Shown: piece by piece, positions 1-50,236 of the stretch
Numbering within the stretch: position 1 is the first letter of the stretch
Layout: each line of letters starts with the position of its first letter
From: an uncultured Anaeromyxobacter sp.
GTDB lineage: Bacteria; Myxococcota; Myxococcia; Myxococcales; Anaeromyxobacteraceae
Reading direction: 5' to 3'
DNA length: 50,236 nucleotides
Assembly: GCA_903874275.1 (NCBI GenBank)
Contig: CAIQRS010000185.1
Location: forward strand, 1-50,236
The notes under the pieces: model-generated
What the model saw: only the letters and a program-made list of their open reading frames with translations
Database searches by the model: none
What the model was told of the DNA's origin: nothing
Position numbers and translations under genes: made by a program

Positions 1-608
1 CACGACGCATGGTCGGCCTCCTTCGCCGTGGCGGGCCAGCGCATGACGACGATCCGCCCGCAGCCATACGGGCAGTCGCCGCGATTACCGTGCTTGCAGT
101 ACACGATCTCAACGCCCGCCCGTGCCGCCTCCTCGATGGCGCGGAGGCGGGCGATCTCGCGGTTCTGCTGGCGGGCCAGTTCGTCGCGGGCGAGGCTGTC
201 CCGGTGCCATTGGTCCATGCGATCCAGCACTTCGGCGTTGAGGGCCACGATGCGGGCGTCGAGTGTCGCGATGCGAGCCTGACCCTGCGCGATGACTTCC
301 TCTACGCCGACGTGCCCGCACCAGTCGGGCGGCAGGGCGGCGAGGATGGCGGCGGCGGCCTGTTCCGGGGTGAACGGCCAGCGGTCTCGCTGGACGGCTG
401 GGAACAGGTCAAGAAGCGCCGCAGCGAGCGGGGCTAGGCGTGGATCGGTGCGGCGGTCCGGCGGCATCGGCCCTTGCTTCTCGGGCGGCAGCCGCAAGTC
501 GGGATGATCCTTCGTCCAGTGGTCGCCACCGCAGACCTTGCACATCTCCCACGGCGGGATCAGCGGATCGGTGGGGGCGAGTCTCGGGTCGTTACTCGTC
601 GTCGCCAT
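1..608 (-). CDS. Zinc-knuckle/coiled-coil hypothetical protein, cut by the left window edge
   Basis: I do not recognise this protein. The frame is open from an ATG at 608 (preceded by a GGGGGTGG ribosome site) to the edge with no stop, so at least 202 residues are seen. Residues 23-35 show C-x2-C-x3-H-x4-H, residues 100-160 are charged and helical (probable coiled coil), and Cys171, His173, Cys179 and Cys183 may form a second metal site. The start overlaps the stop of the upstream gene by 17 nt, as in an operon. Part of it (141-185 and 286-356) is nearly identical to the truncated gene at the right edge. The overlapping ORFs on the plus strand here look like shadows. Confidence 0.7.
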   Translation of the reverse strand, partial: MATTSNDPRLAPTDPLIPPWEMCKVCGGDHWTKDHPDLRLPPEKQGPMPPDRRTDPRLAPLAAALLDLFPAVQRDRWPFTPEQAAAAILAALPPDWCGHVGVEEVIAQGQARIATLDARIVALNAEVLDRMDQWHRDSLARDELARQQNREIARLRAIEEAARAGVEIVYCKHGNRGDCPYGCGRIVVMRWPATAKEADHAS

Positions 609-852
609 AGTCCACCCCCACGGGCTTGATGCCCGTCTGCGTGATGAGGGCGGCGATCGTGCCCGCGGCCCGATCGTTCGCCATGACGGTGCGTGCGAGG
701 TCCACGTAGGAGCGGAACTGCTGCACGCCCTCGACTCCCTCCATCTCGGAGAGGATCTTCCGGAGCGTGGGTGGCGTCAGCTCCTCGCGGATGGCGTTGA
801 AGGCCATCTGCCAGTCGCCGACCTTCTGCGGGATGGTCCGGGTCGCGCTCAC
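592..852 (-). CDS. Hypothetical protein, 86 aa
   Basis: Function unknown. This is a compact, probably helical soluble protein without Cys pairs, signal peptide or membrane segment. Its ATG overlaps the upstream stop as ATGA, which is the rule in this leftward operon and supports both start and coding status. Its stop lies inside the next gene. The frame has the G/C-rich third positions typical of its neighbours. Confidence 0.75.
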   Translation of the reverse strand: MSATRTIPQKVGDWQMAFNAIREELTPPTLRKILSEMEGVEGVQQFRSYVDLARTVMANDRAAGTIAALITQTGIKPVGVDYGDDE

Positions 853-1094
853 TCGTAGACGACCTTCACGGCAACGACGGGAGTCGTGTAGACCACACCG
901 GTCTCAACGTCGTCGAACATGATGCTCGCGCCGGCGATGATGGCGGGCCACTCGACGAGGTGCCCGATGGTCCGACCGCGTCCGTCCGAGGACACGCCGA
1001 TGATGTCGCGAGTCCCGTGGATGCGCTCCCAGATTAGGTCCGTCCGGTCGAAGGCGTACTGTGCGCCGCTCTTGGTGGTGACGTAGACGATCAT
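849..1094 (-). CDS. Hypothetical protein, 81 aa
   Basis: Unknown function. The translation is rich in beta-prone residues (MIVYVTTKSG at the start, many Val and Ile), suggesting a small all-beta fold. No metal-binding or membrane motif is visible. Its ATG overlaps the upstream stop and its stop overlaps the downstream ATG (ATGA at both ends), so it is translationally coupled within the leftward operon. Confidence 0.75.
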   Translation of the reverse strand: MIVYVTTKSGAQYAFDRTDLIWERIHGTRDIIGVSSDGRGRTIGHLVEWPAIIAGASIMFDDVETGVVYTTPVVAVKVVYE

Positions 1095-1306
1095 GGCTGC
1101 TCCTCCCGAAGCTCGTAGGTTGTCGGCTCACCCTGCGTGAGCCCGCCGTTCATGATGGCGAAGATGGGGCGGCCCTCGACGCGGGCCTCCGTGATGTACT
1201 CCAGCACCCGCGTCGGCGGGTAGCCGGTCTTCATGCACAGCTCGTTCAGCGTGAGTGGCCCATCGTACAGGGCCTCGATCAGGGTCTGGACGTGGATGGC
1301 ACTCAT
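1091..1306 (-). CDS. Small winged-helix-like protein, 71 aa
   Basis: This looks like a minimal winged helix-turn-helix: residues about 5-40 read as three helices (IHVQTLIEALY, LTLNELCMKTG, PTRVLEYITEAR), followed by a short hairpin at 45-65. Such proteins bind DNA in many phages, so a regulatory role is possible, but nothing in the sequence gives its target. It is ATGA-coupled to genes on both sides. The fold call is inference from the helix pattern. Confidence 0.65.
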   Translation of the reverse strand: MSAIHVQTLIEALYDGPLTLNELCMKTGYPPTRVLEYITEARVEGRPIFAIMNGGLTQGEPTTYELREEQP

Positions 1307-1512
1307 GGTTCGCGCAGGATGGTGGTAGCCCGGACGGCCCGAGCCAGTTGCTCGATCAAGATGAGCGCCGACTCCGGGGACAGGACATCGACGGCGATCG
1401 GGACGCCCTGCAGGTAGTCCAGGGCCACGACGACCTCGATGTAGGAGTCCTCGCCCCGCCCAGGGTGAACGGGGTGGACGTTGAGCACGGTGACGGTTCT
1501 GTTCTTGCTCAC
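1303..1512 (-). CDS. Hypothetical protein, 69 aa
   Basis: Unknown function. I chose the GTG at 1512 because it overlaps the upstream TGA as GTGA, and the longer version upstream only repeats the other gene's frame in a low-quality translation. Residues 20-50 alternate hydrophobic and polar residues (EVVVALDYLQGVPIAVDVL), followed by a helix, suggesting a small alpha/beta protein. It has no cysteine or membrane segment. Confidence 0.65.
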   Translation of the reverse strand: MSKNRTVTVLNVHPVHPGRGEDSYIEVVVALDYLQGVPIAVDVLSPESALILIEQLARAVRATTILREP

Positions 1513-1766
1513 TCGGCGGCGCACTTTCGGCAGATGGTCTCGCCGATCGGCAGGTCCCCGATGTCGCGCCCGCACTCCAGGCAGTAGTCGTACGGATACC
1601 CGTCCATCAGGCGCTCGGTCTCGTGGTTGAAGCGGGCGATCTCGTGGGCCTCCTCCTCGCCGCACGCGCGGCAGAAGATGCTGTCCGGGGCGACGTTCTC
1701 CGTGCCACAGCCGACACAGAGGAGGTCGTTCGACCAGCGGTACGTGGGGAGGGCTCTCTTGGTCAT
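1509..1766 (-). CDS. Double zinc-ribbon protein, 85 aa
   Basis: Four CxxC pairs are visible: CVGC and CRAC near the N terminus, and CLEC and CRKC near the C terminus. They form two successive four-cysteine zinc ribbons joined by a helix (about residues 38-55). Such proteins usually act as nucleic-acid or protein adaptors; the partner is unknown. The start is the ATG at 1766, coupled to the upstream stop by ATGA. The longer in-frame ORF upstream reads as an Arg/Ala-rich shadow. Confidence 0.75.
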   Translation of the reverse strand: MTKRALPTYRWSNDLLCVGCGTENVAPDSIFCRACGEEEAHEIARFNHETERLMDGYPYDYCLECGRDIGDLPIGETICRKCAAE

Positions 1767-2104
1767 CGCAGGATCCTTCCGCTCGGGTAATGGATGTCCA
1801 GCAGCCGGTTCATGAGGACCCAAGCATCCTCCAGGTCGGGAACCCCACGGGTGATCGTGCCCCACATCATCGGGGTCACGTAGCGCGGGTTCTCGATCTT
1901 CAGCAGGAACTCGTGGACCTCGGAGTCGGTCGCCTGCTGGCGTAGGCTGGGGATGTCCACGACGCGCCCCGTGTGGTCCTGCCACGCGTGAGCGATCGTG
2001 ATGAACGCCTCCATCTCGACGCGCACACCGCACGCGCACTCGATGAAGTGCGGTCCGGCGTGCGCGCCCATGTTGCACTCAGACACGACGTGCACCGGGC
2101 TCAT
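1763..2104 (-). CDS. Hypothetical protein, 113 aa
   Basis: I do not recognise it. The N-terminal third has Cys10, His and a CAC motif (ECNMGAHAGPHFIECACG) that could hold a metal. The rest is soluble and helical, ending in a Trp-rich segment. The start at 2104 is set by the ATGA overlap with the ParB-like gene upstream; the much longer ORF reaching 2662 is a shadow of that gene. Confidence 0.7.
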   Translation of the reverse strand: MSPVHVVSECNMGAHAGPHFIECACGVRVEMEAFITIAHAWQDHTGRVVDIPSLRQQATDSEVHEFLLKIENPRYVTPMMWGTITRGVPDLEDAWVLMNRLLDIHYPSGRILR

Positions 2105-2772
2105 TGCCGCTTCGCCCTCGCCTCGGTGTAGGCGGTGACGAGGAGCTTGATGATCTCGGCGAACGAGGCCAGCTCGTCGCGCGGGAGCATGAGGAGGCCG
2201 TTCTTGGTCGGTGCCCCGATCCCGTCGTCGTCCACGCGCCACCCGAGCAGGTGGTACGCGCCGGCGCGGAACATCTCGAAGCCCTTGTCGGGCTTGGTCT
2301 CGGGTGACCCGTCCCCGCTGCGCTTGTGCGACGTGCGGTAGAAGTTGATTTGCGCGATGCGCTCGCGCGCGGCCTTGCTGTGATTGAGCAGGGCCTCGAA
2401 CTCGTCGTCCGGGTACTGGGCCACGACTCGCCAGTTGTGCGACTGCTTGTGGGAGATGCCGAGTTCGGCGAGAGTGGCCGGAAGGAAGGCGTCCTCGGAG
2501 GATGCCTTCTTCTCTTCGGACCACCGGCCCTCCTTCTCGGTCTTGCGCTCCCCAGCCTCGGACATCCGGATCAACTCGGCCCCGAGCTTGCGCTCCGTGC
2601 GCAGGATGTACTCGGAGGCCTTGTTCTCGGACTCGATGCCGAGGCCGCGCGACTTGGACCACGTACGGGCCGCCGCGAACTTATCTCGTAGATCGTGCAG
2701 GTCCGGGGCGGAGGTCGCCAGCGCAAGGGCCCTGTCGGCCTCGCCCAGCAGGATCAGATCCTTGTCTGTCAT
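2101..2772 (-). CDS. Phage ParB-like/DUF family protein, 223 aa
   Basis: The N-terminal 130 residues match a phage and plasmid family I know by its pattern: a DLHDLRDKFAAAR helix, the KASEYILRTERKLGAELI core, a charged linker, then ATLAELGISHKQSHNW, which looks like a helix-turn-helix, and YPDDEFEALL. Members are often found beside DNA-methylation or partition genes, but the biochemical role is not established. The C-terminal 70 residues look like a separate small domain. The start ATG at 2772 has a good AGGAG ribosome site; a 67-nt gap upstream makes it the first gene of a sub-operon. Confidence 0.7.
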   Translation of the reverse strand: MTDKDLILLGEADRALALATSAPDLHDLRDKFAAARTWSKSRGLGIESENKASEYILRTERKLGAELIRMSEAGERKTEKEGRWSEEKKASSEDAFLPATLAELGISHKQSHNWRVVAQYPDDEFEALLNHSKAARERIAQINFYRTSHKRSGDGSPETKPDKGFEMFRAGAYHLLGWRVDDDGIGAPTKNGLLMLPRDELASFAEIIKLLVTAYTEARAKRQ

Positions 2773-2839
2773 CGGGTTCTCCTGTTCATGCAAGTACTGT
2801 AGCACATCCGCCGAGGGAACGCCGCACTGCGCCGCGGGC

Positions 2840-3013
2840 TCATGGGCAGACCCACGTGGCCACGTCAACGAAGCGCATACCGGCCTGCCAGTACCCGCCC
2901 GGGCAGTCCGCACCGGTCGGGGTCATGTCCCCGTTCAGGAAGAACAGGAGCGACACGACGAAGATGATGATGATGAGCCAGCCCTCACCGTCGTTGCTAC
3001 TGCTCTGGTTCAT
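2840..3013 (-). CDS. Small single-pass membrane protein, 57 aa
   Basis: Residues about 13-33 form one strongly hydrophobic helix (GWLIIIIFVVSLLFFLNGD) after a polar N terminus; the tail has two cysteines. It should sit in the host inner membrane. The start at 3013 overlaps the upstream stop (ATGA). Small membrane proteins in early phage operons often interfere with host functions or block superinfection, but nothing here shows which. Confidence 0.7.
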   Translation of the reverse strand: MNQSSSNDGEGWLIIIIFVVSLLFFLNGDMTPTGADCPGGYWQAGMRFVDVATWVCP

Positions 3014-3180
3014 GGCAGTCTCCCTTCGTACCTGAAGCGCGCCCACAGGATGGGCACGAGGTACTCGGCCGCGATCTTCGTGTTCCACGGCCCGTAATGC
3101 AGGACGCGATCCCCGTCCACCACGCGGACGTAGTACTCGCGCCAGTAGTACTTGACGACCTCGACGATCGTGACGCTCAC
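3010..3180 (-). CDS. Hypothetical protein, 56 aa
   Basis: Unknown. I chose a GTG start at 3180 because it overlaps the upstream TGA (GTGA). The peptide is rich in Tyr, Trp, Val and Arg (YYWREYYVRVVDGDRV), typical of a small beta-sheet fold, with a helix at the end. There are no cysteines and no membrane segment. It is coupled to the membrane-protein gene that follows. Confidence 0.6.
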   Translation of the reverse strand: MSVTIVEVVKYYWREYYVRVVDGDRVLHYGPWNTKIAAEYLVPILWARFRYEGRLP

Positions 3181-3431
3181 TTGGCCTCGCAGTCGTGCCC
3201 GGCACCGGTGTCGGGCGGGCCCCCGCACTCGGGGCAGGGCGGCGGACCGAACACGAGGCCGAGGCGGTGGATCTTCACCCAACACCCGCGCCCATGCTCG
3301 AAGCCGATGCCCGACGTCGTGTTGGCGTGTCCGTAGCGAGCGCCGCAGGACGGGCACGACCCCCGGTACTGCGGCGGCGTGTTGATCCACTCCCTGGCAC
3401 GTGACTCCAGCGAGCGGGGCAGGTCCTTCAT
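3177..3431 (-). CDS. Zinc-ribbon protein, 84 aa
   Basis: Cysteine pairs CPSC (residues 26-29) and CPEC near residues 67-70, with extra His and Cys residues between (H34, H46, C49) and after them (HDC), indicate one or two zinc-binding sites. The N terminus (KDLPRSLESRAREWI) is a helix. The start at 3431 is ATGA-coupled to the upstream gene. Function unknown; a nucleic-acid-binding adaptor is the usual role of such folds. Confidence 0.7.
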   Translation of the reverse strand: MKDLPRSLESRAREWINTPPQYRGSCPSCGARYGHANTTSGIGFEHGRGCWVKIHRLGLVFGPPPCPECGGPPDTGAGHDCEAK

Positions 3432-3814
3432 CCGTACACCAGCTCTCCGAAGCACCCGAGCTGCACGACGCAGTCGGCCTCCGCGCTGTCCATGCAGGCG
3501 AAGTCCTCCATGTCGTCGAAGAAGCGGCCGACGAAGCCGCCGGCGCCCGTCAGGAACAACTGGATCCCGCGCCGGATGAGGGTCGGCGTGATGTCGAAGA
3601 CGCCCGTGCCGCCCTCGTAGGCCTCGCGGATCGTGTAGAAGACGAAGTCCTCGGGAACCTCGGCGCACGCGCCGTAGCCGTCATCGGGATCCTGCCAGCG
3701 CTGGAAGTCGTACTTGTCGATGACGCTCCAGTAGCCGATGCCGCCCTCGGCGGCCGTGATGGCGATGTCCCCGCAGTCCGCGGTGGACAGGTCGCGCTCG
3801 ATCATGACCTTCAT
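3428..3814 (-). CDS. Hypothetical protein, 128 aa
   Basis: I do not recognise this soluble, acidic protein. It has a Gly-rich centre (GGTGVFD, GAGGFVGRFFDD) and several scattered cysteines that do not form a clear zinc motif. ATGA overlaps at both ends place it firmly within the leftward operon. The opposite-strand ORFs over this stretch have unlikely composition and are treated as shadows. Confidence 0.7.
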   Translation of the reverse strand: MKVMIERDLSTADCGDIAITAAEGGIGYWSVIDKYDFQRWQDPDDGYGACAEVPEDFVFYTIREAYEGGTGVFDITPTLIRRGIQLFLTGAGGFVGRFFDDMEDFACMDSAEADCVVQLGCFGELVYG

Positions 3815-3993
3815 GGCTTATCGTCCTCCAGTTCGTCGAAGTCGTCGTCGAAGGGCTCGTCGTCCTCCGGACCGTCCATCTCCTCGTCCCAGTGCTCCAT
3901 GTCGTACCGGTTCTCCGCGTACCACACGGTCTCGGCCTCCTCATTCCAGTGAGCGTAGTCCGCGACGGTCGGGATGTTGTCGCCGCGCTTCAT
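3811..3993 (-). CDS. Very acidic small protein, 60 aa
   Basis: The C-terminal half is almost all Asp and Glu (residues about 37-58, EEMDGPEDDEPFDDDFDELE). Small acidic phage proteins are often DNA mimics that inhibit host nucleases or other DNA-binding proteins, and that is a possible role here, but composition alone cannot prove it. I chose the ATG at 3993 (ATGA overlap with the upstream stop) over the longer start at 4026. Confidence 0.6.
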   Translation of the reverse strand: MKRGDNIPTVADYAHWNEEAETVWYAENRYDMEHWDEEMDGPEDDEPFDDDFDELEDDKP

Positions 3994-4274
3994 GACCAGT
4001 CCTCCCGCTGCTGCAGGGCGTTCCACGCGTAGAGCACGCTGCCCTTCGTGCCGGACTGCACTTCGTGACGCGAGGGGATGCGGTTCCCCCAGTAGTCGTA
4101 CGCATGCTCAGGCCCGAGCACGCAGAAGCCGGCCTCGATCGCGGCCATCATGGACCGGCCGATCGAGCCCTCGAAGCGCCACGCGCCGGCGTCAATCAGG
4201 TCCTGCAGGCCCACGTCGGACGCGTCCTGCGCCGCGAGCACCTGCGCCAGCATCGCCTTGTGTGTCATTGCCAT
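3990..4274 (-). CDS. Hypothetical protein, 94 aa
   Basis: Unknown. It is mostly helical (MLAQVLAAQDASDVGLQDLIDAGAW) with a Tyr/Trp-containing middle; no metal site or membrane helix. The upstream side is a 65-nt gap with two hairpins (4311-4340), so it heads its own run of coupled genes. The start could also be the second ATG two codons in. Confidence 0.65.
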   Translation of the reverse strand: MAMTHKAMLAQVLAAQDASDVGLQDLIDAGAWRFEGSIGRSMMAAIEAGFCVLGPEHAYDYWGNRIPSRHEVQSGTKGSVLYAWNALQQREDWS

Positions 4275-4310
4275 CGTACACCTGCCTCATTCAGCGCCGG
4301 GTGGTGATCC

Positions 4311-4340
4311 CCGGTCGGACCGGCCGAAGCCGGTTTCGGC
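4311..4340 (-). terminator. Pair of hairpins after the lipoprotein gene
   Basis: Two inverted repeats lie back to back: 4311-4323 (CCGGTC-G-GACCGG) and 4323-4340 (GCCGAA, 6-nt loop, TTCGGC). On the transcribed strand they follow immediately after the stop of the lipoprotein gene. There is no T-run, so they may be a weak or Rho-assisted terminator, or an RNA-processing site, rather than a classic intrinsic terminator. Confidence 0.35.
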
Positions 4341-5544: not shown

Positions 5545-5545
5545 G

Positions 5546-12621: not shown

Positions 12622-14041
12622 AGCACGCGTATTCGGAGAGGGATCCGAGGACTTTCGACAGGCCGAGTGGCTCGCGCGCAAGCTGGCGAGGCAGTGGCGC
12701 TTCGACTTCTCGACGAAGCTCTGGCATCACTGGGACGGGACGCGCTGGGCGCCCGACAAGACGAACTCGCTCCTCAATACCGTTGCGACGGCTGCCGCCC
12801 TGTCGGTCGGCAGCGCCGAGAACGAGGCCCAGCGCAAGGCCCTCGTCAAGCTCCTCTCGATCGCGCCACTCATGAAGGCCCTGGAGGCCCTCGCCACGTT
12901 CGAGGGCTACGGCACGAGCGGCGAGGACTGGGACCAGGATCCGTACACACTCGGCTGCGCGAACGGGATCGTGGATCTGCGGAAGAACGAGCTGATCGCG
13001 AAGCCGGACCCGTCCTGCCTCGTCACGAAGTCTACGGGCGTGGACTTCCACCCCGTCCAGGAGCCGACGGACTTCGCGCGCCGGGCGCCGCGCTTCATGC
13101 AGTTCCTCCTGGAGATCACGTCGGGCGACATGGGGATGGTCCTCTTCCTGCTCCAGTGGTTCGGGGCGAGCCTCTTCGGCTTCAGTCCCGAGCAGCGCTT
13201 CCTCATGATGATCGGCATTGGCCGTAACGGGAAGGGCGTCCTGAAGAACTCTGTCATCCACGCCGCCGGCGAGTACGGGGCCCAGCCCGACGGGAACGTC
13301 TACATGCGCGCCAGGCACGGTGGCGTCAGCTCGTCCTCCGCGCGCGCCGAACTGATCGACCTGAAGGGGAAGCGGATCTGCTTCTTCTCGGAGCCCGAGG
13401 GCCAGCACTTCAACGAGGAGATGCTGAAGGCGCACACGGGCGGGGACTTCATCACGGCGCGCACGCTCTATAGCGCCAAGATGCTGAAGTGGCAGGCTAC
13501 GCACAGCATCACTTTCCTTGTGAACGACGCGCCCGAGGTCGAGGACGTGGGCCCCAGCATGGCGAACCGGGTCATGGTCGCCGACTTCCGGGAGCGCTAC
13601 GACGGGGACAAGGAGGACAAGCGCCTGGAGAAGAAGCTCGAAGGCGAGGCCGAGGGCATCCTGGCCATCCTGTGCTGGGCCGCGAAGCGCTGGTACGACT
13701 CGTACGAGTCCGACGGGGGCGGCATCGAGATCCCCAACCGCGTCAAGGAACAGAGCAAGGCCTTCATGGAGAAGAACGACCCGATCGCGCACTGCCTCAA
13801 CGAGGCCTTCGACACGGGCGGGGACCTGAAGTGGCAGGCGAGCCTGTGCTACCAGGCGTACCTGCAGTGGTTCGCGCGCTCTGGTGAGGAGGGAGAGGCC
13901 GTCTCGCAGATCAAGTTCGCCCGGGGGATCGAGAAGAAGGGCTTCAAGAAGGTCTCCAAGAGCAACGGGAACTACTACCTCGGGTTGAAGCCGAAGTCCG
14001 CGGTTGACATCGCGGACCGGGAGAGCGAGGACAACGATTGA
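12614..14041 (+). CDS. SF3 (D5/P4-type) replicative helicase, 475 aa
   Basis: Residues 1-190 are the D5-N-type region before the motor. The ATPase core shows Walker A GIGRNGKG (201-208), a Walker B-like RICFFSEPEG (254-263), sensor HSITFLVNDAP (297-307, Asn304) and MANRV with the probable arginine finger Arg319. These are the hallmarks of phage superfamily 3 helicases of the P4 alpha family. The C-terminal 80 residues look like a winged helix. Start is GTG at 12614, inside the prim-pol gene. It should unwind the origin as a hexamer together with the prim-pol. Confidence 0.85.
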   Translation: MSEARVFGEGSEDFRQAEWLARKLARQWRFDFSTKLWHHWDGTRWAPDKTNSLLNTVATAAALSVGSAENEAQRKALVKLLSIAPLMKALEALATFEGYGTSGEDWDQDPYTLGCANGIVDLRKNELIAKPDPSCLVTKSTGVDFHPVQEPTDFARRAPRFMQFLLEITSGDMGMVLFLLQWFGASLFGFSPEQRFLMMIGIGRNGKGVLKNSVIHAAGEYGAQPDGNVYMRARHGGVSSSSARAELIDLKGKRICFFSEPEGQHFNEEMLKAHTGGDFITARTLYSAKMLKWQATHSITFLVNDAPEVEDVGPSMANRVMVADFRERYDGDKEDKRLEKKLEGEAEGILAILCWAAKRWYDSYESDGGGIEIPNRVKEQSKAFMEKNDPIAHCLNEAFDTGGDLKWQASLCYQAYLQWFARSGEEGEAVSQIKFARGIEKKGFKKVSKSNGNYYLGLKPKSAVDIADRESEDND

Positions 14042-14721: not shown

Positions 14722-15182
14722 GTCTCGGATGCAGGATCTGCGACGATCCGGCTGTTAGGAAGCCGATCGACGAGATGCAGTTCAAGAATGACCCAGATGC
14801 GTCGATTGCGCGCATCATGAAGTACCGCGGTTTCGACGTTGGAGCCCCTGTCTACAGGCGGCACCGGAGCGAGGCCCACCGGCTCATCTACATGCCCAAG
14901 GATGACGAGAAACCTGCTCTCGTGAAGCGGGATCTTGCCATTCTCGTCCGGGACAAGATGTACGACGCGATCGAGGCCCTCCCGGCCGACGCCATGCTCA
15001 TCAAGGAGTTCCAGCCGGCCCTCGGGAACGCGATCCGGGCCCAGGGCGCGATCGACAAGCGGGAGACGAAGAAGGTGGGCGGGCAGACGTTCATCCTGCA
15101 GCTCGCCGCGGCCCTGGGCGAGCGGATCGGCATTACGGCGGGCCCGGAGGTCATCGAGGGCGAGGCTACCGAGCTTGTCTGA
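14718..15182 (+). CDS. CxxC/RRHR-domain protein, possible small terminase, 154 aa
   Basis: It lies directly before the large terminase and overlaps it by 8 nt, the usual site of the small terminase subunit. Residues 5-55 show CRIC, a helix, IARIMKYRG and a final YRRHRSEAH. This fits the small zinc-plus-helix-turn-helix pattern (CxIC...GVS...RRHRxxH) that is common in actinobacterial phages. The rest (65-145) is helical and could form the oligomer. DNA recognition for packaging is inferred from place and fold. A relative of the N-terminal domain lies at 45160-45381. Confidence 0.6.
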   Translation: MSLGCRICDDPAVRKPIDEMQFKNDPDASIARIMKYRGFDVGAPVYRRHRSEAHRLIYMPKDDEKPALVKRDLAILVRDKMYDAIEALPADAMLIKEFQPALGNAIRAQGAIDKRETKKVGGQTFILQLAAALGERIGITAGPEVIEGEATELV

Positions 15183-16689
15183 CGCTGCCGACAAGATCGC
15201 GGACTACGAGTTCGACATCCCCGGTTTCGCGCGGGATGTGCTCGGGATTACGAACGGGGTCCACTCCGGGCAGGCCCGTTTCTTCGATGCCGTCTCGGTG
15301 CGTCGCGCCGACGGGCAGACGGCCCAGTGGCTGACGATCATGCTCGCCTCGGGGAACCGGGCCGGCAAGACGATGGCCCTCGCCATCGCGATCATCCACG
15401 CGTGCATCTACAAGACGAACCTGCAGCGGAACCTGACCACGGAGAAGGGCCGCCAGAAGTGGGCCCGGTCGGAGTTCCACTGGTACCACTTCGGGATCGC
15501 GCACGAGGTCGCGGACCTGGTCTGGGCCGAGATCGTGCGCATCCTGGACGGGATGCACCTCGCCCAGGCCGACGGTTGCCCCTTGACGGCGAACGGACCC
15601 GCCGCTACGTGGGACGTCAAGGAGTACGGCGACTTCCACTGGATCAAGTTCATCCCCGACCTTGGCGGCGCGCAGATCCACTTCCGGACCACGGGCGAGA
15701 AGGCCCTGGGATCCCTGGGCAAGGACATGCACGGGATCAGCTTTGACGAGGCTGGCATCGAGCGGAACCTCGACTTCCTCGTGGACGAGGTCTTCCACCT
15801 ACGGCGCCTCGGTACGGGCGGCCAGCTCCTGATGGTCTCGACCCCCTCCGAGGACATCGGCTCGATGTTCGCCGATCGGTGGGCCCTCGGGGACCACGAG
15901 AACAACCCGGACGCGAAGAAGAGCGCGTTCTCGCTGCGGATGAGCACCCGGGAGAACATCGACTTCGGCCTTACGCGCGAGATGTTCGACATCCTGGTCG
16001 CCGACATGGACGAGCGCACCATCCGGCAGAACATCGAGGGCGAGTTCCTCCAGGCGCGCGCCGCGTACTTCAACGGCTGGAACGTAGACAACTGCTTCGT
16101 GGACAACCTTCCGGAGCGGGCTCTCGCGCGCAAGGGCCTGCGCTACATCCAGGGCGTGGACCCGGCGAAGACGCAGGACAGCGCCTGGAGCATCGTCCTG
16201 GCCGTCGTCCCCAATCCGGCCGTGCCCGAGGACCCCTACCTGGTTGGTGTCAGGGCTGAGCAGAAACGTGGCCAGAAGAGCACGGATACGGTCGTGAACC
16301 TCGCCGCGGAGGCCCACAACGCGTACGATGTTGCACGTCTCGGCACGCACTGTTATACTGCGATTGACGCCACCGGTTTCGGGGGCAAGCTCTTTCGCGA
16401 ACTGCTGGAGCGCGAGGTCCCCAATCTGGTCAACGTCGAGTTCGGGGGGACAGTACAGAAGAAGCGGAAACTGCTAGGTGACCTGCGCACTGTGATTGAC
16501 TCGGGCCGACTGATCCTCCCGCGCGAGGGCATCTGGCTGCAGGTTCGCCGACAACTACTTGGGTACAAGCTTGACGATCGTGGCATCGAGCAGGACGCGG
16601 TGATGGCGCTCGTGTGCGCCGTCTACCTGTTGCGCCGGTCTGCCGATGGCCAGGGCAGTGTTCCCTTTGACCTGGCCGGAGGCTCATGA
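15175..16689 (+). CDS. terL: Terminase large subunit, 504 aa
   Basis: This is the packaging motor and headful or cos nuclease. The ATPase domain has Walker A ASGNRAGKT (58-66), Walker B GISFDE (187-192) and the coupling motif VSTPS (221-225). The C-terminal RNase-H-like nuclease starts with GVDPAK (Asp329) and AIDATGFG (Asp398 region), with a last acidic site near EQDAVMAL. The length is normal for the family. I choose the TTG at 15175, in the overlap with the preceding gene, because no ATG exists near the true N terminus; the ORF start at 14935 belongs to a shadow frame. Confidence 0.9.
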   Translation: MSDAADKIADYEFDIPGFARDVLGITNGVHSGQARFFDAVSVRRADGQTAQWLTIMLASGNRAGKTMALAIAIIHACIYKTNLQRNLTTEKGRQKWARSEFHWYHFGIAHEVADLVWAEIVRILDGMHLAQADGCPLTANGPAATWDVKEYGDFHWIKFIPDLGGAQIHFRTTGEKALGSLGKDMHGISFDEAGIERNLDFLVDEVFHLRRLGTGGQLLMVSTPSEDIGSMFADRWALGDHENNPDAKKSAFSLRMSTRENIDFGLTREMFDILVADMDERTIRQNIEGEFLQARAAYFNGWNVDNCFVDNLPERALARKGLRYIQGVDPAKTQDSAWSIVLAVVPNPAVPEDPYLVGVRAEQKRGQKSTDTVVNLAAEAHNAYDVARLGTHCYTAIDATGFGGKLFRELLEREVPNLVNVEFGGTVQKKRKLLGDLRTVIDSGRLILPREGIWLQVRRQLLGYKLDDRGIEQDAVMALVCAVYLLRRSADGQGSVPFDLAGGS

Positions 16690-18629
16690 TGGCGCAAGAC
16701 TTCAGTTCCCTTACCCTTGCCAGCGCGCTGAAGCTCCGGGAGGCCGACAGCGGAGAGGACATCACCCTCGTTCGCGAGCTGAATGACCGCGTCGAGAGCG
16801 TCCGCACCGAGATGCAGCTCTTCCGCGAGTTGTGCGACCGCTTCGATGCCCTCTACTACTCCGAGGCCTTCACCCTCGGCGGGGCGGACCTGTGGTCTAC
16901 GGACCCGAGTGCCAGCACACCCGGCCGATCCCACGTCAGCGTCAACACTCCGGCGACCTACATCGACATCCCCGCCTCCCTGCAGTCCGTGGACCCGATC
17001 GAGAACATGATCGCCACCGACACGACGGAGGAGGCCCGCTCCGCGGCGGCCGCGCTGGAGCGCATCTACACTGCGTGGAAGGCCGAGGAAGAGTTCGAGC
17101 TGAAGTTCCACAAGGCCTCGACCGTCAAGGCCCTCTACGGGCGGACGGCGAGCCGGATCTACTGGGACAAGGAGGACAAGGCCCCTCACCCGTGCGTGGA
17201 CGTGGTCGAGCAGCCCCGGAACCTGTACCTCGGGTACAAGACCGACTCCTACGAGGAGGTCGAGTGGGCCGCCTACGTCACCAGGTGGAACCCGAACGCC
17301 CTCGCCGAGGAGTACGGCCTGGAGGTTGACGCCCGCGCGCTCGACGAGACTATCGTTCCTTACGTCTCGTCCGTAACGCTCGACAGCATGGCCCCGCGCC
17401 CGTGGCTCAACTTCGGGCCCGCCCAGATCGAGGTCTGGGACTACTGGTACCGCCGGCGCTCCTCCGGGAAGCGCGGGAAGATGGAGACCTGGAACGCCGT
17501 CGTCGCTGGCGACGCGATCGTCCAGGGTCCCAACAAGTACCCCGAGTACGAGGGAGGGATCCCGTACGTCCCGCTCTTCAACACGTTCATCCCGGGCGTC
17601 CCCAACGGGCGGGCCGAGCTGTACGACATGGAGCCCCTCATCCGGGAGAAGTACGAGAAGATCACGGCCGGAAGCCAGATGATCGCGAACGGCGTGGCCG
17701 GTGACTACTGGCAGCTCGTCGGCCCGGAGGCGCCCTCCCGCGTTCCGCCCGGCCTGAAGCCCCGCCGGAACGAGCTGATCGGGCCAGGTCCGGGGAACCG
17801 CATCGAGACGATCACGCCCTTCATCGCCCAGTTCCAGCTCGAACAGTTCCTCGGACGGATCGACCGCGAGATGGCGACCGTCTCGGGCCTGAACGACCTG
17901 CTCCTCGGGCTCGCCCCGGCGCAGGTCCTGTCCAGCTCGAAGGCCATCAACGCCCTGATCGCGAACTACGAGGCGCGACTCAGCATGCGCCGCAAGCTGC
18001 TGTACGCGTGGCGCAGGCGCACGTGGGAGCTGGCCGTCAAGGTCTGGGCCGCCAAGGACAAGGACGTCCGGGCCGTCGTCGTTGCCGGCGGCGGGAAGCT
18101 CGACATCCAGGATCCGTCCCTCAGCCCTCGCGACGAGATGGAGACCAGCACTCGTGCGTCCAACCTCGTTGCCGCCAAGCTCTGGAGCCAGCGTCGCGGC
18201 ATGGACGCCGTCGGCGTGGACGACCCGGAGACCGAGCAGGACATGATCCGCGAGGAGCGGACCGACGCCACGATGTTCCCGGAGGAAGTGCAGGTCATGG
18301 CCCAACTCATGGGCGCCCTGCAGAGCCTCGGCCTCAACGCGCCGGCGGGCGCGGAGAGCCAGGTCGAGGGTCAGATGGCGAGCGGGCAGGCCGATCTGCG
18401 GTCTGCCCTCGGGGCCCGAACGCCCGAGAACACCACCAGTTCGCAGCTCCCCGGGGACCAGGGCATCACGCCCGCGATCCCGGGCGCCCCTCCCGAGGCA
18501 GGAGGCGCCCCGCCCCCGTTCGCGGCTGGGCCCGGCGGGGAGGCAACTCCGCCCGTGATGCAGGGGATGCTCCAGGGCGGTAAGACGAAGGGTAGGATCC
18601 TAACTCAGTCTTCTCTGGGGAGGCGGTAA
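16686..18629 (+). CDS. Portal protein, 647 aa
   Basis: It follows the terminase with an ATGA overlap, the standard place for the portal. The protein has a helical N terminus, the long mixed alpha/beta body with VWDYWYRR and IPYVPLFNTF, a central RIDREMATVSGLNDLLLG region and the following helix expected at the clip/stem (residues about 380-440). The C-terminal 90 residues are Gly/Pro/Ala-rich and probably disordered. It forms the dodecameric DNA gate of the head. Two ATGs stand together at 16686 and 16689; either may serve. Confidence 0.8.
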   Translation: MMAQDFSSLTLASALKLREADSGEDITLVRELNDRVESVRTEMQLFRELCDRFDALYYSEAFTLGGADLWSTDPSASTPGRSHVSVNTPATYIDIPASLQSVDPIENMIATDTTEEARSAAAALERIYTAWKAEEEFELKFHKASTVKALYGRTASRIYWDKEDKAPHPCVDVVEQPRNLYLGYKTDSYEEVEWAAYVTRWNPNALAEEYGLEVDARALDETIVPYVSSVTLDSMAPRPWLNFGPAQIEVWDYWYRRRSSGKRGKMETWNAVVAGDAIVQGPNKYPEYEGGIPYVPLFNTFIPGVPNGRAELYDMEPLIREKYEKITAGSQMIANGVAGDYWQLVGPEAPSRVPPGLKPRRNELIGPGPGNRIETITPFIAQFQLEQFLGRIDREMATVSGLNDLLLGLAPAQVLSSSKAINALIANYEARLSMRRKLLYAWRRRTWELAVKVWAAKDKDVRAVVVAGGGKLDIQDPSLSPRDEMETSTRASNLVAAKLWSQRRGMDAVGVDDPETEQDMIREERTDATMFPEEVQVMAQLMGALQSLGLNAPAGAESQVEGQMASGQADLRSALGARTPENTTSSQLPGDQGITPAIPGAPPEAGGAPPPFAAGPGGEATPPVMQGMLQGGKTKGRILTQSSLGRR

Positions 18630-27937: not shown

Positions 27938-29200
27938 ATGGCAGTCCTCACCCCGGCAATCACCGTCAGTGCGATGACGAACTTCGCAGCGACGGTCGTG
28001 ACGCTGGTCGAGAAGAAGCTGGAGGAGAACCTTCGTTCCCCCCTCCCCTTCCTCAACCCCGGCAACTACCGCACGGCGAAGTTCGTCAAGGGCACGAACA
28101 ACACCCTCCGCTACCTGAACATCCCGGACATGGTCGCGACCACGAACAGTGGCTCGTTCTCGGCCGGGACTGCTCCGTGGCTGGAGGAGGGCACTCCGCC
28201 CGCGTCTGAAGTCCTCGCCTTCGGGTACGAGGAGTTCAGCGCCTACCAGGCAGGCCGCACGCTGACCGTCAGCGACAAGGCCCTGCAGGAGAACCCGGTC
28301 GATCTCATGGCGAACATGGCTGACAAGATCAGCCGGAACGCCATCGAGACCGCGAACCTCTGGGTCCAGGACAAGCTGAAGGCCAGCACCACCAACGTCA
28401 TGTACGCGAACGGCTCGGCCGGTCTGACTGCCCTCGGGTACGACGACCTGCTCGCCGGCGCCGACGTCAAGGACGCAGTCGCGCTCCTGTCGGCCGCGAA
28501 CGTCTCCCCCTTCTCGGATGGCTCCTACCACGGGATCATCCACCCGCTCGTCAAGCGCGATCTCATGTCGGACAACGAGGCCGGCGGCTGGATCGACGCC
28601 CAGCGCTACCAGGGCAACGTGGCCGGTGGCCTCATGAACGGCGAGCTTGGCTCGTACGGTGGGGTCCGGTTCGTTGAGTCGGCGATCATCACCCCGACCG
28701 TTCAGGCCGGGACCGCAGTCAACATCACGGCCGTCTACACGACGGGCGTCTTCACGACGGTCGCTGGCGATCACGGCTTCGTGGTCGGCGACAAGCTCAC
28801 CTTCGCCACCATCGGCGGGGGCGGCACCCAGTTCACGGCGACGGTTCCGGGCGCTCTCTACGTCCGCACCGTTCCCTCCAGCACGACCTTCACGACCAGC
28901 GCGACGCGCGGCGGGACCCTGTTCACGTGGAACACGGCCGACGTCACGTCGAGCCCGGCCGTCAAGGCCAACGCCCTCTACTCGACCTACATTCTGGGCC
29001 CGGACTCCTACGCGTTCGGCGACTGGAACGCGATCGAGGTCTTCGTGACGCCTCCGGGCGGCCACACGGACCCGCTGCATCAGTCCGCACTGATCGGCTG
29101 GAAGGGCTACTTCGGCGCCAAGCTCCTCGGCGAGGTCTACACGACCACGGCCCCGGTCCCGCGCATGAAGCGGATCGTCTCGACCGCCGCGCTCGCCTGA
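27938..29200 (+). CDS. Major capsid protein, N4-gp56-like, 420 aa
   Basis: The order of motifs fits the N4-gp56 capsid family: an N-terminal arm, WLEEGTPP, the GRTLTVSDKAL strand-helix, SYHGIIHPLVKRDLM (196-210), WIDAQRYQGNV, GELGSYGGVRFVES (235-248), then YILGPDSYAFGDW (351-363) and DPLHQSALIGWKGYFGAKLL (378-397). This is an HK97-fold shell protein. Between residues about 258 and 340 lies a Thr/Gly-rich beta insert (HGFVVGDKLTF) not expected in the core family and similar to the repeats of the next gene. It probably projects from the shell. Confidence 0.85.
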   Translation: MAVLTPAITVSAMTNFAATVVTLVEKKLEENLRSPLPFLNPGNYRTAKFVKGTNNTLRYLNIPDMVATTNSGSFSAGTAPWLEEGTPPASEVLAFGYEEFSAYQAGRTLTVSDKALQENPVDLMANMADKISRNAIETANLWVQDKLKASTTNVMYANGSAGLTALGYDDLLAGADVKDAVALLSAANVSPFSDGSYHGIIHPLVKRDLMSDNEAGGWIDAQRYQGNVAGGLMNGELGSYGGVRFVESAIITPTVQAGTAVNITAVYTTGVFTTVAGDHGFVVGDKLTFATIGGGGTQFTATVPGALYVRTVPSSTTFTTSATRGGTLFTWNTADVTSSPAVKANALYSTYILGPDSYAFGDWNAIEVFVTPPGGHTDPLHQSALIGWKGYFGAKLLGEVYTTTAPVPRMKRIVSTAALA

Positions 29201-46385: not shown

Positions 46386-46545
46386 GTGGAACCACCTTCC
46401 CCGGCGCGTGCACGGGACAGCCCTCGGTGATCCACCAGCCGTCCGGCGGATAGGGCGCCCACTTCCCGTGGTTGTTGTCGAGCACGGCGCAGATGCAGCC
46501 CTGCTTGATGGCCTCGTCCGATCCCGGGTTGGGCTTCTTCTTCAT
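46378..46545 (-). CDS. Small conserved-type phage protein, 55 aa
   Basis: Translation starts MKKKPNPGSDEAIKQG, then CICAVLDNNHGKW, and near the end WWITEGCPVHAPG. I recognise this PGSxEAxxxGCxCxVxDNxHG...CPxH pattern as a small protein found in many phages and prophages. Cys and His residues suggest one zinc site. Function unknown. It is ATGA-coupled to the HAD gene upstream and overlaps the next by 8 nt. Confidence 0.8.
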   Translation of the reverse strand: MKKKPNPGSDEAIKQGCICAVLDNNHGKWAPYPPDGWWITEGCPVHAPGKVVPHG

Positions 46546-46937
46546 GACTTCCCCTTCTTGTTCTCGACGATCAGGTACTCGCTGATGTCGTTGGCGAGCA
46601 GGCCCGGCTCGACCCTGATGGCCCGGTCATCGAAGTACGCGTCCGCCTGGACCTTCTCCGACGTGATGTGATCGAACGGGATCTTCCAGTACTGGAGGTA
46701 GTCCACGACGTAGGAGACGTTCGCTTCCCCGAAGGCGTCGGGGTCCTGGTAGTCGAACTTGTAGCAGCCGTTCTGCCACCACGTGGGCGACAGGCGCGAC
46801 GTGAGGATGATGATGCGGTACCCGGCCGCGCGCAGGTCCGTCATCGCGTCAACCACACCCGGGAAGGGCGGGTCGAGGTCGAAGAGCGGGCCCCAGGGGG
46901 CGATCGTGTTGTCGAAGTCGATGGCCACGGTCTTCAC
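46542..46937 (-). CDS. HAD-family phosphatase, 131 aa
   Basis: The start is GTG 46937 (GTGA overlap). The chain holds all HAD motifs: DFDNT (nucleophile Asp7, acid Asp9), RIIILTSR with Thr46, a conserved Lys (Lys95) and ADAYFDDRAI with Asp103-Asp104. The small size without a large cap fits phage enzymes that remove phosphates from nucleotides or DNA/RNA ends. It stands next to the DUF1599/Nmad1-like gene. The substrate cannot be read from the sequence. Confidence 0.75.
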   Translation of the reverse strand: MKTVAIDFDNTIAPWGPLFDLDPPFPGVVDAMTDLRAAGYRIIILTSRLSPTWWQNGCYKFDYQDPDAFGEANVSYVVDYLQYWKIPFDHITSEKVQADAYFDDRAIRVEPGLLANDISEYLIVENKKGKS

Positions 46938-47260
46938 GAGGCACTCTCCCGAAGGTACTCGACCATGATCCTGTTCTCCCTGATCCACGACAGGAGGATG
47001 GGGGCCAGCCGTGAGACCAGCTCCTCCTCGTCGTCGGCCGGGGCCGCACTGAGCGCGGCCGCGTTGAACATGGCGTGCAGGCTCTCGTGGACGAGGGTCG
47101 CGCGCTTGCGCTCGTGCCCGTCCACCCGGTCGATGCTGATGCGGGGGGCGCCGGGCTCGTACAGCCCGTGACACTTCCCGCCCTCGTGTTCGAGGTTGAG
47201 CTTGTCCACGACGGGGATGACCTGCCCGAGCAGGCGGATGTTGCGGGGCAGTGCTCTCAT
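46934..47260 (-). CDS. HExxH metallopeptidase-like protein, 108 aa
   Basis: TLVHESLHAMF gives His58-Glu59-x-x-His62, and the downstream DDEEELVSRLAP offers Glu79 or Glu80 as third zinc ligand. Short proteins of this layout, with a SWIRENRIMVEYL-type end, are common in phages of actinobacteria and are called metalloproteases, though activity is seldom shown. It is ATGA/GTGA-coupled to both neighbours. Confidence 0.7.
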   Translation of the reverse strand: MRALPRNIRLLGQVIPVVDKLNLEHEGGKCHGLYEPGAPRISIDRVDGHERKRATLVHESLHAMFNAAALSAAPADDEEELVSRLAPILLSWIRENRIMVEYLRESAS

Positions 47261-47469
47261 GCGCTGCCCTGCTTCTTGGCGATGAAGGCCGCGACGTCCG
47301 CCGGGACCCTGTCGTTCATGGGCACGCGCCCCTCGACGAGGTCATCGACGGCGAGCTGGATGGCCTCGGGCATGCCCGACTTCCAGATCAGGCCGGTCTC
47401 GATGAGGATGCGCCGATCCTCGGGGTCACTGGCGTCAAAGCGCGGGTGAGTCTTGGTTCCGGTTGGCAT
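47257..47469 (-). CDS. Hypothetical protein, 70 aa
   Basis: Unknown. It has DASDPEDRRILIETGLIWKS then MPEAIQLAVDDLVEG, mostly helical, with a basic tail. The start ATG shares one base with the upstream TAA (TAATG). No cysteine. Confidence 0.6.
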   Translation of the reverse strand: MPTGTKTHPRFDASDPEDRRILIETGLIWKSGMPEAIQLAVDDLVEGRVPMNDRVPADVAAFIAKKQGSA

Positions 47470-48035
47470 TAGGCAATCCTCTCGAACTCTGGGCAGGCGG
47501 CGAGGGAGCACACCCCGTACTTGCGGCCCTTGCGTGAAGTTAGGGTGACCAGGTGCTTGTCCCCGTGCTCGGGGCAGGTCCATGCGCCGGATGTTACGGG
47601 TGGAGTAGTAGCAACTGGAGCGGCATCTAGGACGGCGAAGGCGGCAGCAAAGGCCTGACGCTGGGCGTCAGCCTGCTGCGCCGCAAACTTCTCCTCGAAG
47701 GAGGGACCAATGTCGGGCGCTTTCTCCTCGGGAGGGGGAGAGATCGGCGGCAGGGGCTCGGCGAGCCCGGCCTCCCGCTCGATGGAGAGCAGGCAGGACT
47801 CGATGCCGGCGAGCTGAGCCTGCATCTGGAACAGGTTCTCCCTGATGATCTTGGAGGAATGTATGACCTGGCTCTGGATCCCCTCGTCGTGCGGGAATAT
47901 ATCCCCCTTCGCGTCGAGGAATGTAGACCTTACGTTGCTCTCCATGCCGACGGGCGTGAGCTGGGTGGCCTTCTCCTGCTTCATGCCCATGATGCTCGCC
48001 GTCATCGCGTCGAGCACGTTCTGCGTGTCGCTCAC
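47469..48035 (-). CDS. Helical protein with C-terminal zinc ribbon, 188 aa
   Basis: Residues 55-95 form a helix pair (KIIRENLFQMQAQLAGIESCLLSIE), followed by a Pro/Glu-rich linker and an Ala/Gln helix. The last 35 residues (WTCPEHGDKHLVTLTSRKGRKYGVCSL...CPEF) are a small zinc ribbon of the type found at the ends of ssDNA-binding or recombination proteins. The function is uncertain; it stands beside the Cas4/RecB-like nuclease, so a DNA-repair context is plausible. Confidence 0.65.
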   Translation of the reverse strand: MSDTQNVLDAMTASIMGMKQEKATQLTPVGMESNVRSTFLDAKGDIFPHDEGIQSQVIHSSKIIRENLFQMQAQLAGIESCLLSIEREAGLAEPLPPISPPPEEKAPDIGPSFEEKFAAQQADAQRQAFAAAFAVLDAAPVATTPPVTSGAWTCPEHGDKHLVTLTSRKGRKYGVCSLAACPEFERIA

Positions 48036-48214
48036 TTACGGTCCCCCTTCCAGATGACATTGAGGCACCCGGTGCAGAGCCAGAGGACCTGGCCCTTCTG
48101 CTCGTAGGGGTTCTTCCGCCACGGCAGCCCGCAGCACGCGGCCAGCCCTGAGTACGGGGGGTCGATCAGGTGGATGACCACGACCGGGTAGTTGGGAAGC
48201 TCCTGCTCCTTCAT
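48032..48214 (-). CDS. Small Cys-rich protein, 60 aa
   Basis: Two Cys groups, CCGLPW and CTGC, can form one zinc site after a short beta segment (YPVVVIHLIDPPY). It is coupled by ATGA to the nuclease gene upstream and to the gene downstream. Function unknown. Confidence 0.65.
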   Translation of the reverse strand: MKEQELPNYPVVVIHLIDPPYSGLAACCGLPWRKNPYEQKGQVLWLCTGCLNVIWKGDRK

Positions 48215-49245
48215 TCTCCCTCCGGGGCACTGCCACTGTAGTTAGCGGTGAACAGGGTGTCGGGCTCCGGGTACGTGGCGAGGAAGCGCGCGAAGGCGAC
48301 GCTCCCAAGGAAGGCCCGGAGCACACTCTGGTTGAAGTCGAACAGGTGGACGGCCCACGAGTTGGGCCTGATGTGGACGAGGCCCCCGAGCATGGTCGCG
48401 TTCAGCAGCTCGGTGAGCCGGTGGTCGATGATCCCGTTCGTGCCGACGAACTCGGCCGCCATGTAGGCGTGGGCCTGCACGACCTGATCCGTGTAGACGC
48501 CCTTCGAGGTCTTCCAGTCGAGAAGGGCGAGTTCGCCGCCGAGGGCCCGGAACATGTCGAGGGTGAACGTCTCGGCCTTGGGCATCGGGCCGTCGTAGCC
48601 GTCGGGCAGGAGCCACGCGAGCGCGTCTGCGCTCCCGGCGTAGCCCGCCGTCAGGTTGAAGACCTGCACTTCACGGGCGATGATGAACATGGGCACGTTC
48701 GCGCGCATGTCCCAGTACTGGCGGAGCGAGTTCCGCACGAAGTTGACGTCCTCGAAGCGGACCCCGTCCTTGACCTTGCTCTTGTCGCGGTTCGACAGGC
48801 CCGCAAAGGCGCTCTCGACGTAGGCCTGCTCGATGCGCGTCCAATCGACGTTCTTCTCGATCGCCTCGTGCGTGATGGTACCGCGGATGGCGGCGATGTT
48901 CCGGGGCTCGTCGGCCGTATCGCTCAGCCACTTCCGGACCGAGTCGATGGCTCCCTGCTCGCCGGCGGTCGCGTCGTACTTCTTCGCGAACTCGCTCGGG
49001 AACTCGAAGACCTGACGCTTCTCGGTCACGCCACCGCGTGGCCCGATGGTCGTCTGCTTCTGCGTCCCGAGGATCGTGTCGATGACGTTCCCGATCTGCC
49101 AGCGCACGAGCACGTAGGGCTCGCCGCACAGGCGCCGGATGCTCGTGACCGACAGCACGTCCGTCGGCTCACCGCCCTCGGCGGGGTCCCACCTATAGAA
49201 ACGGAACCCTTCGCCGCTGATGCTCGCGTTCTTGGGATTGCTCAT
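48211..49245 (-). CDS. Cas4/RecB-like PD-(D/E)xK exonuclease, 344 aa
   Basis: The core nuclease is clear: RGTITHEAIE (121-130, with His126), REVQVFN then YAGSADALAWL with Asp207, GGELALLDWKTSK with Asp243 and Lys245, and QVVQAHAYMAAEF with Gln257 and Tyr261. These are the RecB/Cas4-family motifs. There is no Cys cluster at the end, so it lacks the Cas4 iron-sulphur site. It likely processes DNA ends for recombination. I start at ATG 49245 (coupled to the upstream stop); the longer start would need the neighbour's frame. Confidence 0.75.
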   Translation of the reverse strand: MSNPKNASISGEGFRFYRWDPAEGGEPTDVLSVTSIRRLCGEPYVLVRWQIGNVIDTILGTQKQTTIGPRGGVTEKRQVFEFPSEFAKKYDATAGEQGAIDSVRKWLSDTADEPRNIAAIRGTITHEAIEKNVDWTRIEQAYVESAFAGLSNRDKSKVKDGVRFEDVNFVRNSLRQYWDMRANVPMFIIAREVQVFNLTAGYAGSADALAWLLPDGYDGPMPKAETFTLDMFRALGGELALLDWKTSKGVYTDQVVQAHAYMAAEFVGTNGIIDHRLTELLNATMLGGLVHIRPNSWAVHLFDFNQSVLRAFLGSVAFARFLATYPEPDTLFTANYSGSAPEGE

Positions 49246-49457
49246 GGCTTCACCAGCTCGGGCATCGTCTCCACCCACCTGACGCAGTGCCAGATGGCGT
49301 CGGGCAACATCCACTCGTGGTTCCGGGACACGGCCTCGCTGACGCCCTCCGCGTCCCTGCTCTTGCTGAGCACGGCGGCCCGTGCCCTGGCCTCCGCCGG
49401 GTCGGAGAAGTACTCCTCGGTCGTGCGATTGTGCATGACGATCTTGTGCTCGCCCAT
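49242..49457 (-). CDS. Hypothetical protein, 71 aa
   Basis: Unknown. It is an alpha/beta protein (EHKIVMHNRTTEEYFSD, EARARAAVLSKSRD). Two starts are possible: ATG 49457 sharing one base with the upstream stop, or GTG 49460. No good ribosome site is seen, so it is probably coupled to the membrane-protein gene upstream. Confidence 0.6.
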   Translation of the reverse strand: MGEHKIVMHNRTTEEYFSDPAEARARAAVLSKSRDAEGVSEAVSRNHEWMLPDAIWHCVRWVETMPELVKP

Positions 49458-49696
49458 CACGCGTACTGGTCCGTGACCGCGAGCAGGAGCATGGCCGCGA
49501 TGCCCGCTACTGCCGCGAAGGGCGCCGCATCGACGGACTCCACGCCCACGATGAGGGCGATGACGGCCACGATGTAGAGCAGGATCCGGCGCACCGCGGC
49601 GCGCTCGTGGCCGCCGATGGCGTACCGTAGCCCGTGTTCGACTCTCACGGCGTGAGAGTCTGACTCGATGAGAGTGTCTTCCGCGAGAGTCACCAT
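49457..49696 (-). CDS. Two-helix membrane protein, 79 aa
   Basis: Two membrane helices are evident: RILLYIVAVIALIVGVESV and AAPFAAVAGIAAMLLLAVT, with a short loop between. The N terminus is charged. It could be an early membrane protein that blocks superinfection or affects the host envelope; nothing more can be read. It overlaps the gene upstream by 7 nt. Confidence 0.65.
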   Translation of the reverse strand: MVTLAEDTLIESDSHAVRVEHGLRYAIGGHERAAVRRILLYIVAVIALIVGVESVDAAPFAAVAGIAAMLLLAVTDQYA

Positions 49697-49989
49697 GATG
49701 TCAGTCCTCCGATGTCGATGTCGGGAAGGGGGGCAGGAGGTAGGGCCTCGGATAGCCCGTAGAGGGGCCAGAAGGCTCGGGTGTGAGTGCGGTCGTGCTC
49801 GTGATGGCTGCAGTACTGGCGTGCAACGGACAGCACCCACATGCGGCCGTGCCGGGGATGGGTCGGGCAAACGTCACCGTCCCCGTAATCGTGACTTGCT
49901 CTGGATGGTCGGGGCACGGGTCGAGCCACCGCCGCAAGAGCGGTCGCCTTCGCACGGGCAAGATCCAGCGCTTCATCGGACATCCCCAT
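49690..49989 (-). CDS. Small Cys/His protein, 99 aa; relative of the gene at 9146-9355
   Basis: I choose ATG 49989 because AGGAAGG lies 6 nt before it. The DLARAKATALAAVARPV helix and CPTHPRHGRMWVLSVARQYCSHHEHDR match the gene at 9146-9355 in order and spacing (a C-H-C-H possible zinc site). The two are paralogues at opposite ends of the leftward unit. A different frame (49701-49976) has poor composition and is rejected. Confidence 0.65.
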   Translation of the reverse strand: MGMSDEALDLARAKATALAAVARPVPRPSRASHDYGDGDVCPTHPRHGRMWVLSVARQYCSHHEHDRTHTRAFWPLYGLSEALPPAPLPDIDIGGLTSW

Positions 49990-50236
49990 CGAGCACCTTC
50001 CTCGCCTCACTAAGGGCGGCCATACAACGGGCCCAGTCGCCTGCCTGCATCCCCAACGGAGCGGACGCAGCCTCGACCAGCTTCGCGAGCGCTGCGCGGA
50101 GGCGGGCGATCTCGCGGTTCTGCTGGCGGGCCAGTTCGTCACGGCACGCGGCGTCGTGCTGCGCTTGCGCGATGACTTCCTCTACGCCGATGTGCCCGCA
50201 CCAGTCGGGCGGCAGGGCGGCGAGGATGGCGGCGGC
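49973..50236 (-). CDS. Coiled-coil hypothetical protein, cut by the right window edge
   Basis: The 5' end lies beyond the window; 87 residues up to the stop at 49973 are visible. The first 16 residues are the same as 86-101 of the left-edge protein but for one (Val to Ile), and DELARQQNREIARLRA is also shared. The following C-terminal part differs. It overlaps the gene downstream by 17 nt. It is either a paralogue or another version of the same locus. Confidence 0.65.
   Translation of the reverse strand, partial: AAAILAALPPDWCGHIGVEEVIAQAQHDAACRDELARQQNREIARLRAALAKLVEAASAPLGMQAGDWARCMAALSEARKVLDGDVR

Follow-up and report, generated by a model that had tools for sequence, protein, structure and literature searches.

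According to the COBRA paper (PMC10914622), MEGAHIT contigs that are broken at repeats have ends of maxK length in common. The stretch of DNA analysed here (hereafter the window), a contig of 50,236 nucleotides from an uncultured Anaeromyxobacter sp., is like the de Bruijn contig breaks presented there in being a virus contig broken at a repetitive or variable place, and unlike them in that its ends are without a maxK overlap. Seven uncultured tailed phages from IMG/VR resemble the window phage in their terminase large subunit (TerL; 57-66% amino-acid identity) and in the gene neighbourhood around the window junction, whereas the accessory genes between their counterparts of two small conserved genes, 592-852 and the GDGD-CP gene (49690-49983), vary in number and sequence. 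A further set of viral contigs holds relatives of the two incomplete genes at the window ends, here termed A (left) and B (right). In this DWCGH/coiled-coil family the modules LAxLAAAL ... AAAILAALPPDWCGH and then EIARLRAAL, which form the family core, are alike throughout, and L141=L142 and L143 carry tandem copies with short repeats; A of the window differs in having one more cysteine stretch at its N-terminus and in its C-terminus. We find it somewhat better than an even chance that A and B are neighbouring tandem paralogues in one phage genome with a circular map, with an unassembled gap between them.

The window is the entire contig C185 of an assembly of 285 contigs and 5.07 Mb with a completeness of 98.87%. 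Judged by its predicted proteins, it is the genome of a tailed dsDNA phage, with TerL, a portal protein and a major head protein all present (PHROGs matches with E values of 1.9e-19, 9.1e-7 and 3e-34, respectively), and PHROGs matches also predict primase/helicase, holin and exonuclease functions. The scan covered 30 proteins of 58 chosen ORFs, which had been picked by a heuristic GC3 filter. The original prediction that both outer blocks are read leftward agrees with the strands of these ORFs, which are minus for 20 of 20 in 1-9840 and for 13 of 13 in 43409-50236 and plus for all 25 between. Close relatives at the DNA level were found neither for positions 1-8000 in phage records nor for positions 1-25000 in plasmid records. 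The TerL and portal proteins have no relative among 50,697 phage records, and the primase part matches 865 phage records, every one of them at less than 60% identity. TerL relatives in IMG/VR amounted to 13 loci with a protein query and 29 with an alignment query. Searches for TerL in four genomes of the genus and for the portal protein in 24 genomes of the family returned only the genome to which the window itself belongs. A single TerL relative turned up in one pattern scan of species genomes, where it lies on a contig of a Baikal 'Myxococcales bacterium' MAG; this offers a lead to the host lineage. The coordinates of the features discussed below are collected in Table 1.

Table 1. Features of the window, with positions counted from its first base
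Feature	Position	Strand	Remarks
Gene A	1..608 (ORF 3-608)	-	At least 202 aa; 3' end lost at contig end
Repeat island 2, left copy	139..189	-	50/51 with 50094-50144
Repeat island 1, left copy	286..356	-	70/71 with 50166-50236
Conserved small gene	592..852	-	Left-side synteny anchor
Primase/helicase region, two ORFs	11797..14041	+	
Terminase large subunit	14935..16689	+	Listed ORF; real start probably near residue 80-95, from relatives
Portal protein	16686..18629	+	PHROGs
Major head protein	27938..29200	+	PHROGs
Exonuclease (phrog_298)	48211..49245	-	Right-side synteny anchor; 53-65% identity in 7 relatives
Small membrane-like protein (MVTLAE...), 79 aa	49457..49696	-	Similar ORF by eye in 7/7 relatives
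Small conserved gene (GDGDxCP...HGRM)	49690..49983	-	Start 49983 or 49989
Gene B	49973..50236	-	87 aa remain; 5' end lost at contig end; relative of A
Repeat island 2, right copy	50094..50144	-	50/51 with 139-189
Repeat island 1, right copy	50166..50236	-	Last 45 bases exact

The two ends of the window do repeat each other as predicted, with 70 of 71 positions matching in island 1. In island 2, the predicted exact match of 45 bases (141-185 and 50096-50140) is present and extends outwards on both sides to the limits given in Table 1. Both islands sit in the leftward frames of A and B and in the same frame. They are spaced by 96 bases on the left and by 21 on the right; the difference of 75 bases, or 25 codons, means that the copies are not colinear without a gap. 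The end copies are mosaic, with matching islands and unlike sequence between and after them. The longest exact runs between the ends are 47 bases (139-185) and 45 bases (the window suffix), whereas 200 rounds of trinucleotide shuffling of the two end segments (first 999 and last 399 bases) produced none longer than 13; the end repeat is therefore not a matter of chance. The terminal 700 bases on either side gave only two weak matches elsewhere in the assembly (87% over ~40 bases each). When the ends are joined from 50236 to 356, residue 85 of the left protein falls in frame on residue 1 of the right 5'-open ORF and, as had been claimed, the frame stays open as far as the stop at 49973. A diversity-generating retroelement at the ends was considered and set aside, given a single base difference per island and no reverse transcriptase match among the 30 PHROGs-scanned proteins of the 58 ORFs.

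The arrangement of genes across the window ends was compared in IMG/VR. Used as single queries, the exonuclease and 592-852 proteins gave nothing in viral contigs, whereas an exonuclease alignment did find relatives there. An exonuclease relative was found in three of 14 records and then in four of seven others, giving seven distinct records: G004 (3300033485_000034), G011 (3300037422_000199), G014 (3300049926_000017), G038 (3300036766_000385), G040 (3300033233_000069), G042 (3300046791_000242) and G043 (3300044260_000040). The searched records that lack one are fragmentary, with lengths of 4 to 24 kb. In all seven, a relative of 592-852 shares contig and strand with the exonuclease relative and lies upstream of it, at distances of 752 (G004), 459 (G011), 2277 (G014), 1873 (G038), 1318 (G040), 1076 (G042) and 1138 (G043) bases. 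The best E value of these 592-852 relatives is 3.3e-31 and the weakest is that of G014 (5.6e-5, with 31% identity). By arithmetic, the same distance in the window is ~1.2 kb through the 50236-to-356 join and 1.5-1.6 kb if the ends simply abut. The GDGDxCP...HGRM gene has a relative at this place, by eye, in six of the seven, with none listed in G043. Since the relatives of 592-852 and of the exonuclease are neighbours in 7/7 records, the two leftward blocks belong to a single unit and the map is closed across the window ends, and to this extent the original prediction stands. As far as gene order indicates, the genome of the window phage very likely maps as a circle, and in two of the seven relatives (G004 and G043) a single contig runs from the exonuclease through to TerL. 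If the contig ends were instead the physical ends of a linear genome, one would understand why no assembler-size repeat joins them, and no end repeats were seen in the relative records; nothing positive points to such ends, and all seven relatives read continuously across this point and have their own breaks elsewhere, as in G011 between the relatives of 3010-3390 and 5971-6390. We judge real linear ends very unlikely, to the point of being barely credible.

The genes flanking the junction define the place that A and B occupy. A lies directly after 592-852 and overlaps its end by 17 bases, and B precedes the GDGD-CP gene, the start of which falls just inside B. A and B are thus predicted to hold the first and the last place, respectively, of an accessory position between 592-852 and 49690-49983. 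The content of this position differs among the relatives: counted from ORFs by eye and GC3, with no gene caller, it comprises no small gene in G004, G011 and G042, one in G040, two in G038 and G043, and two or three in G014. No clear relative of A or B was seen in the searched parts of G004, G011 and G014. The flanks of the locus show 81-87% identity between G038 and G040, and inside it only islands of 33 and 65 bases are common to the two. The two locus genes of G038 have a 32-base 3' repeat in common (84%), and the single locus gene of G040 is without such repeats.

This variation bears on the model that follows from the original prediction, in which the ends represent one gene in two population versions, such that a circle of ~49.88 kb passes from 50236 directly into 357, with positions 1-355 derived from a variant phage. 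The open frame across the 50236 join, the synteny across the window ends in the relatives, the single gene at the locus in G040 and the different mosaic versions carried at the same locus by the otherwise similar G038 and G040 all agree with it. A graph branch between two versions, however, should leave an end overlap of 141 bases or of a lower k such as 99, and this expectation was compared with contig ends in the same assembly. All contigs of the assembly were searched with 60-base queries from both ends of 16 contigs (32 ends; four of the 20 contigs fetched read N), and at least 10 of the 32 ends have a partner among the matches listed. The exact overlap in 12 pairs is 141 bases in six, 138-140 in four (three of these four involve ends that lie in one simple repeat) and 99 in two; overlaps of less than ~60 could not appear with queries of this length. 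The values 99 and 141 belong to a MEGAHIT k-list, and the assembly was presumably made by MEGAHIT.

In comparison, the recurring part of the window suffix is limited to 45 bases next to a mismatch, and that of the prefix to 9. A standard assembler closure overlap at the window ends is ruled out by the contrast between 45 exact bases and the 99-141 of the 12 pairs. With only a 45-base suffix match and no strong partner elsewhere, the likeness of the ends is better regarded as a property of the genes than as a closure overlap. The same contrast lowers the likelihood of the 50236-to-356 join and of 1-355 as an alternative version of the locus, with the proviso that overlaps below ~60 were invisible in the control. 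Moreover, the contig is unbroken from A into 592-852 and from B into the exonuclease, whereas a bubble formed by two versions should, from how we understand the assembler to work, break on both sides. We therefore hold one gene in two versions to be possible but less likely than tandem genes. The absence of a 141-base overlap favours a gap over a graph branch; it does not by itself choose between one gene and two, because near-identical tandem genes could also branch.

The layout of A comprises an N-terminal CKVCGG, the TPEQAAAAILAALPPDWCGH core, a coiled-coil-like stretch and a second cysteine-rich stretch. Neither A nor B matches a PHROGs or Pfam family at an E value of 1e-3. In phage records, A has no match at 1e-5 or at 0.05 and B has none at 0.01. 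In 145 genomes of the order, three have a match to A, namely its own genome and two at E values near 1e-3. Cysteine pairs and heptads of the kind found in A and B are read as possible metal-binding and coiled-coil features, respectively, and the products of the two genes may be small accessory proteins of the early operon that form coiled coils and possibly bind metal. Homology links A with B, and both with members of the family in other phages. Viral contigs with such relatives comprise five loci (L009, L140, L141, L142 and L143), of which L141 and L142 are identical over the 1400 bases compared, leaving four distinct family loci. L140 contains one B-type ORF of 126 aa (2824-3204), and no other window gene was found in L009. 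L141 has two family-like ORFs in a row and L143 has three. Protein likeness within a row is weak, with E values of 0.004 in L141 and of 0.036 and 1.7e-4 in L143, as obtained from a seven-sequence comparison without composition correction. At the DNA level, neighbouring copies have short repeats of 38 bases (92%), 26 bases (100%), 22 bases (95%) and 68 bases (78%) in L143 and one of 22 bases (95%) in L141=L142; such repeats were found in neither L140 nor L009, that is, they are absent from two of the four distinct family loci. Family copies thus lie side by side on one molecule in L141=L142 and L143, and in the window the contig ends fall between A and B.

The presence of the family in several other phage contigs raises the question of whether the assembler extended one end of the window, the left (about 1-285) or the right, into a chimera with another phage that has the same accessory family, and it is in keeping with such an origin that the first 117 bases have no other match in the assembly. 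The islands, however, have 98-99% DNA identity, whereas the best outside relatives reach at most 56% at the protein level over 84 residues (L140) or 73% over ~45 (L009), and the GC content is alike in both end pieces (0.69-0.71) as against 0.66 beside them. A chimeric end is accordingly improbable.

We infer that A and B lie within one genome and that the gap lies between them. On the reading of A and B as tandem paralogues, the contig would be nearly complete, the leftward early block would run on through the contig ends, and the contig would stop inside the variable accessory position between 592-852 and 49690-49983, the unassembled part being the 3' end of A together with the 5' end of B. 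Paralogy and recombination would then account for why the ends look alike, with short islands of 98-99% DNA identity and unlike sequence between them, and genes of the A/B type may be gained, lost and recombined via short shared modules. With a tandem pair and one gap, a single event explains why A connects with the left block alone and B with the right block alone. The two locus genes of G038 and the tandem copies with repeats in L143 and L141=L142 count in favour of this arrangement. Counted against it are L140, L009 and G040, which are without such repeats, so that a single gene is possible, and the open joined frame, which a single gene needs, although homologous paralogues would show the same. 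That the gap falls exactly in a repeated stretch would be a coincidence, and this weighs mildly against tandem paralogues.

In practice, the contig is best handled as a circle with a small gap and with both end genes retained, and not as a 49.9-kb circle in which 355 bases are superfluous. The accessory locus differs from one relative to another in this phage group and may be prone to assembly breaks. There is a small but appreciable chance that the A/B family represents more than this, namely a recombination-driven modular cysteine/coiled-coil array that grows, shrinks and exchanges parts at a fixed place in the early operon of otherwise different environmental phages. Such an array might be a fast-evolving locus for host interaction or counter-defence, and the break in the assembly would then mark active variation in the sampled population.

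Several other features of the window were noted. A tRNA-Trp (cca) gene lies at 11693-11764, directly before the primase. Two very large overlapping ORFs (936 and 2055 aa as listed) occupy 18797-27339 between the portal and major head protein genes; they show 34-39% identity over long stretches in three relatives and have no Pfam match. The protein encoded by 37521-40085 has a strong concanavalin A-like lectin domain (Laminin_G_3, E value of 1.3e-36) and also matches the virion structural family phrog_8510. The gene at 46542-47174 matches phrog_1238 (named phosphoheptose isomerase; E value of 8e-17), with a weak match to a polynucleotide kinase family and a HAD hydrolase match below the cut-off. 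Finally, a gene resembling a DNA polymerase exonuclease subunit (44086-44908) is located in the leftward block in the window and in G004, whereas in G011 and G014 it is found with a small neighbour on the opposite strand, just before the primase; from this placement, the gene and its neighbour are apparently a module that moved and flipped.
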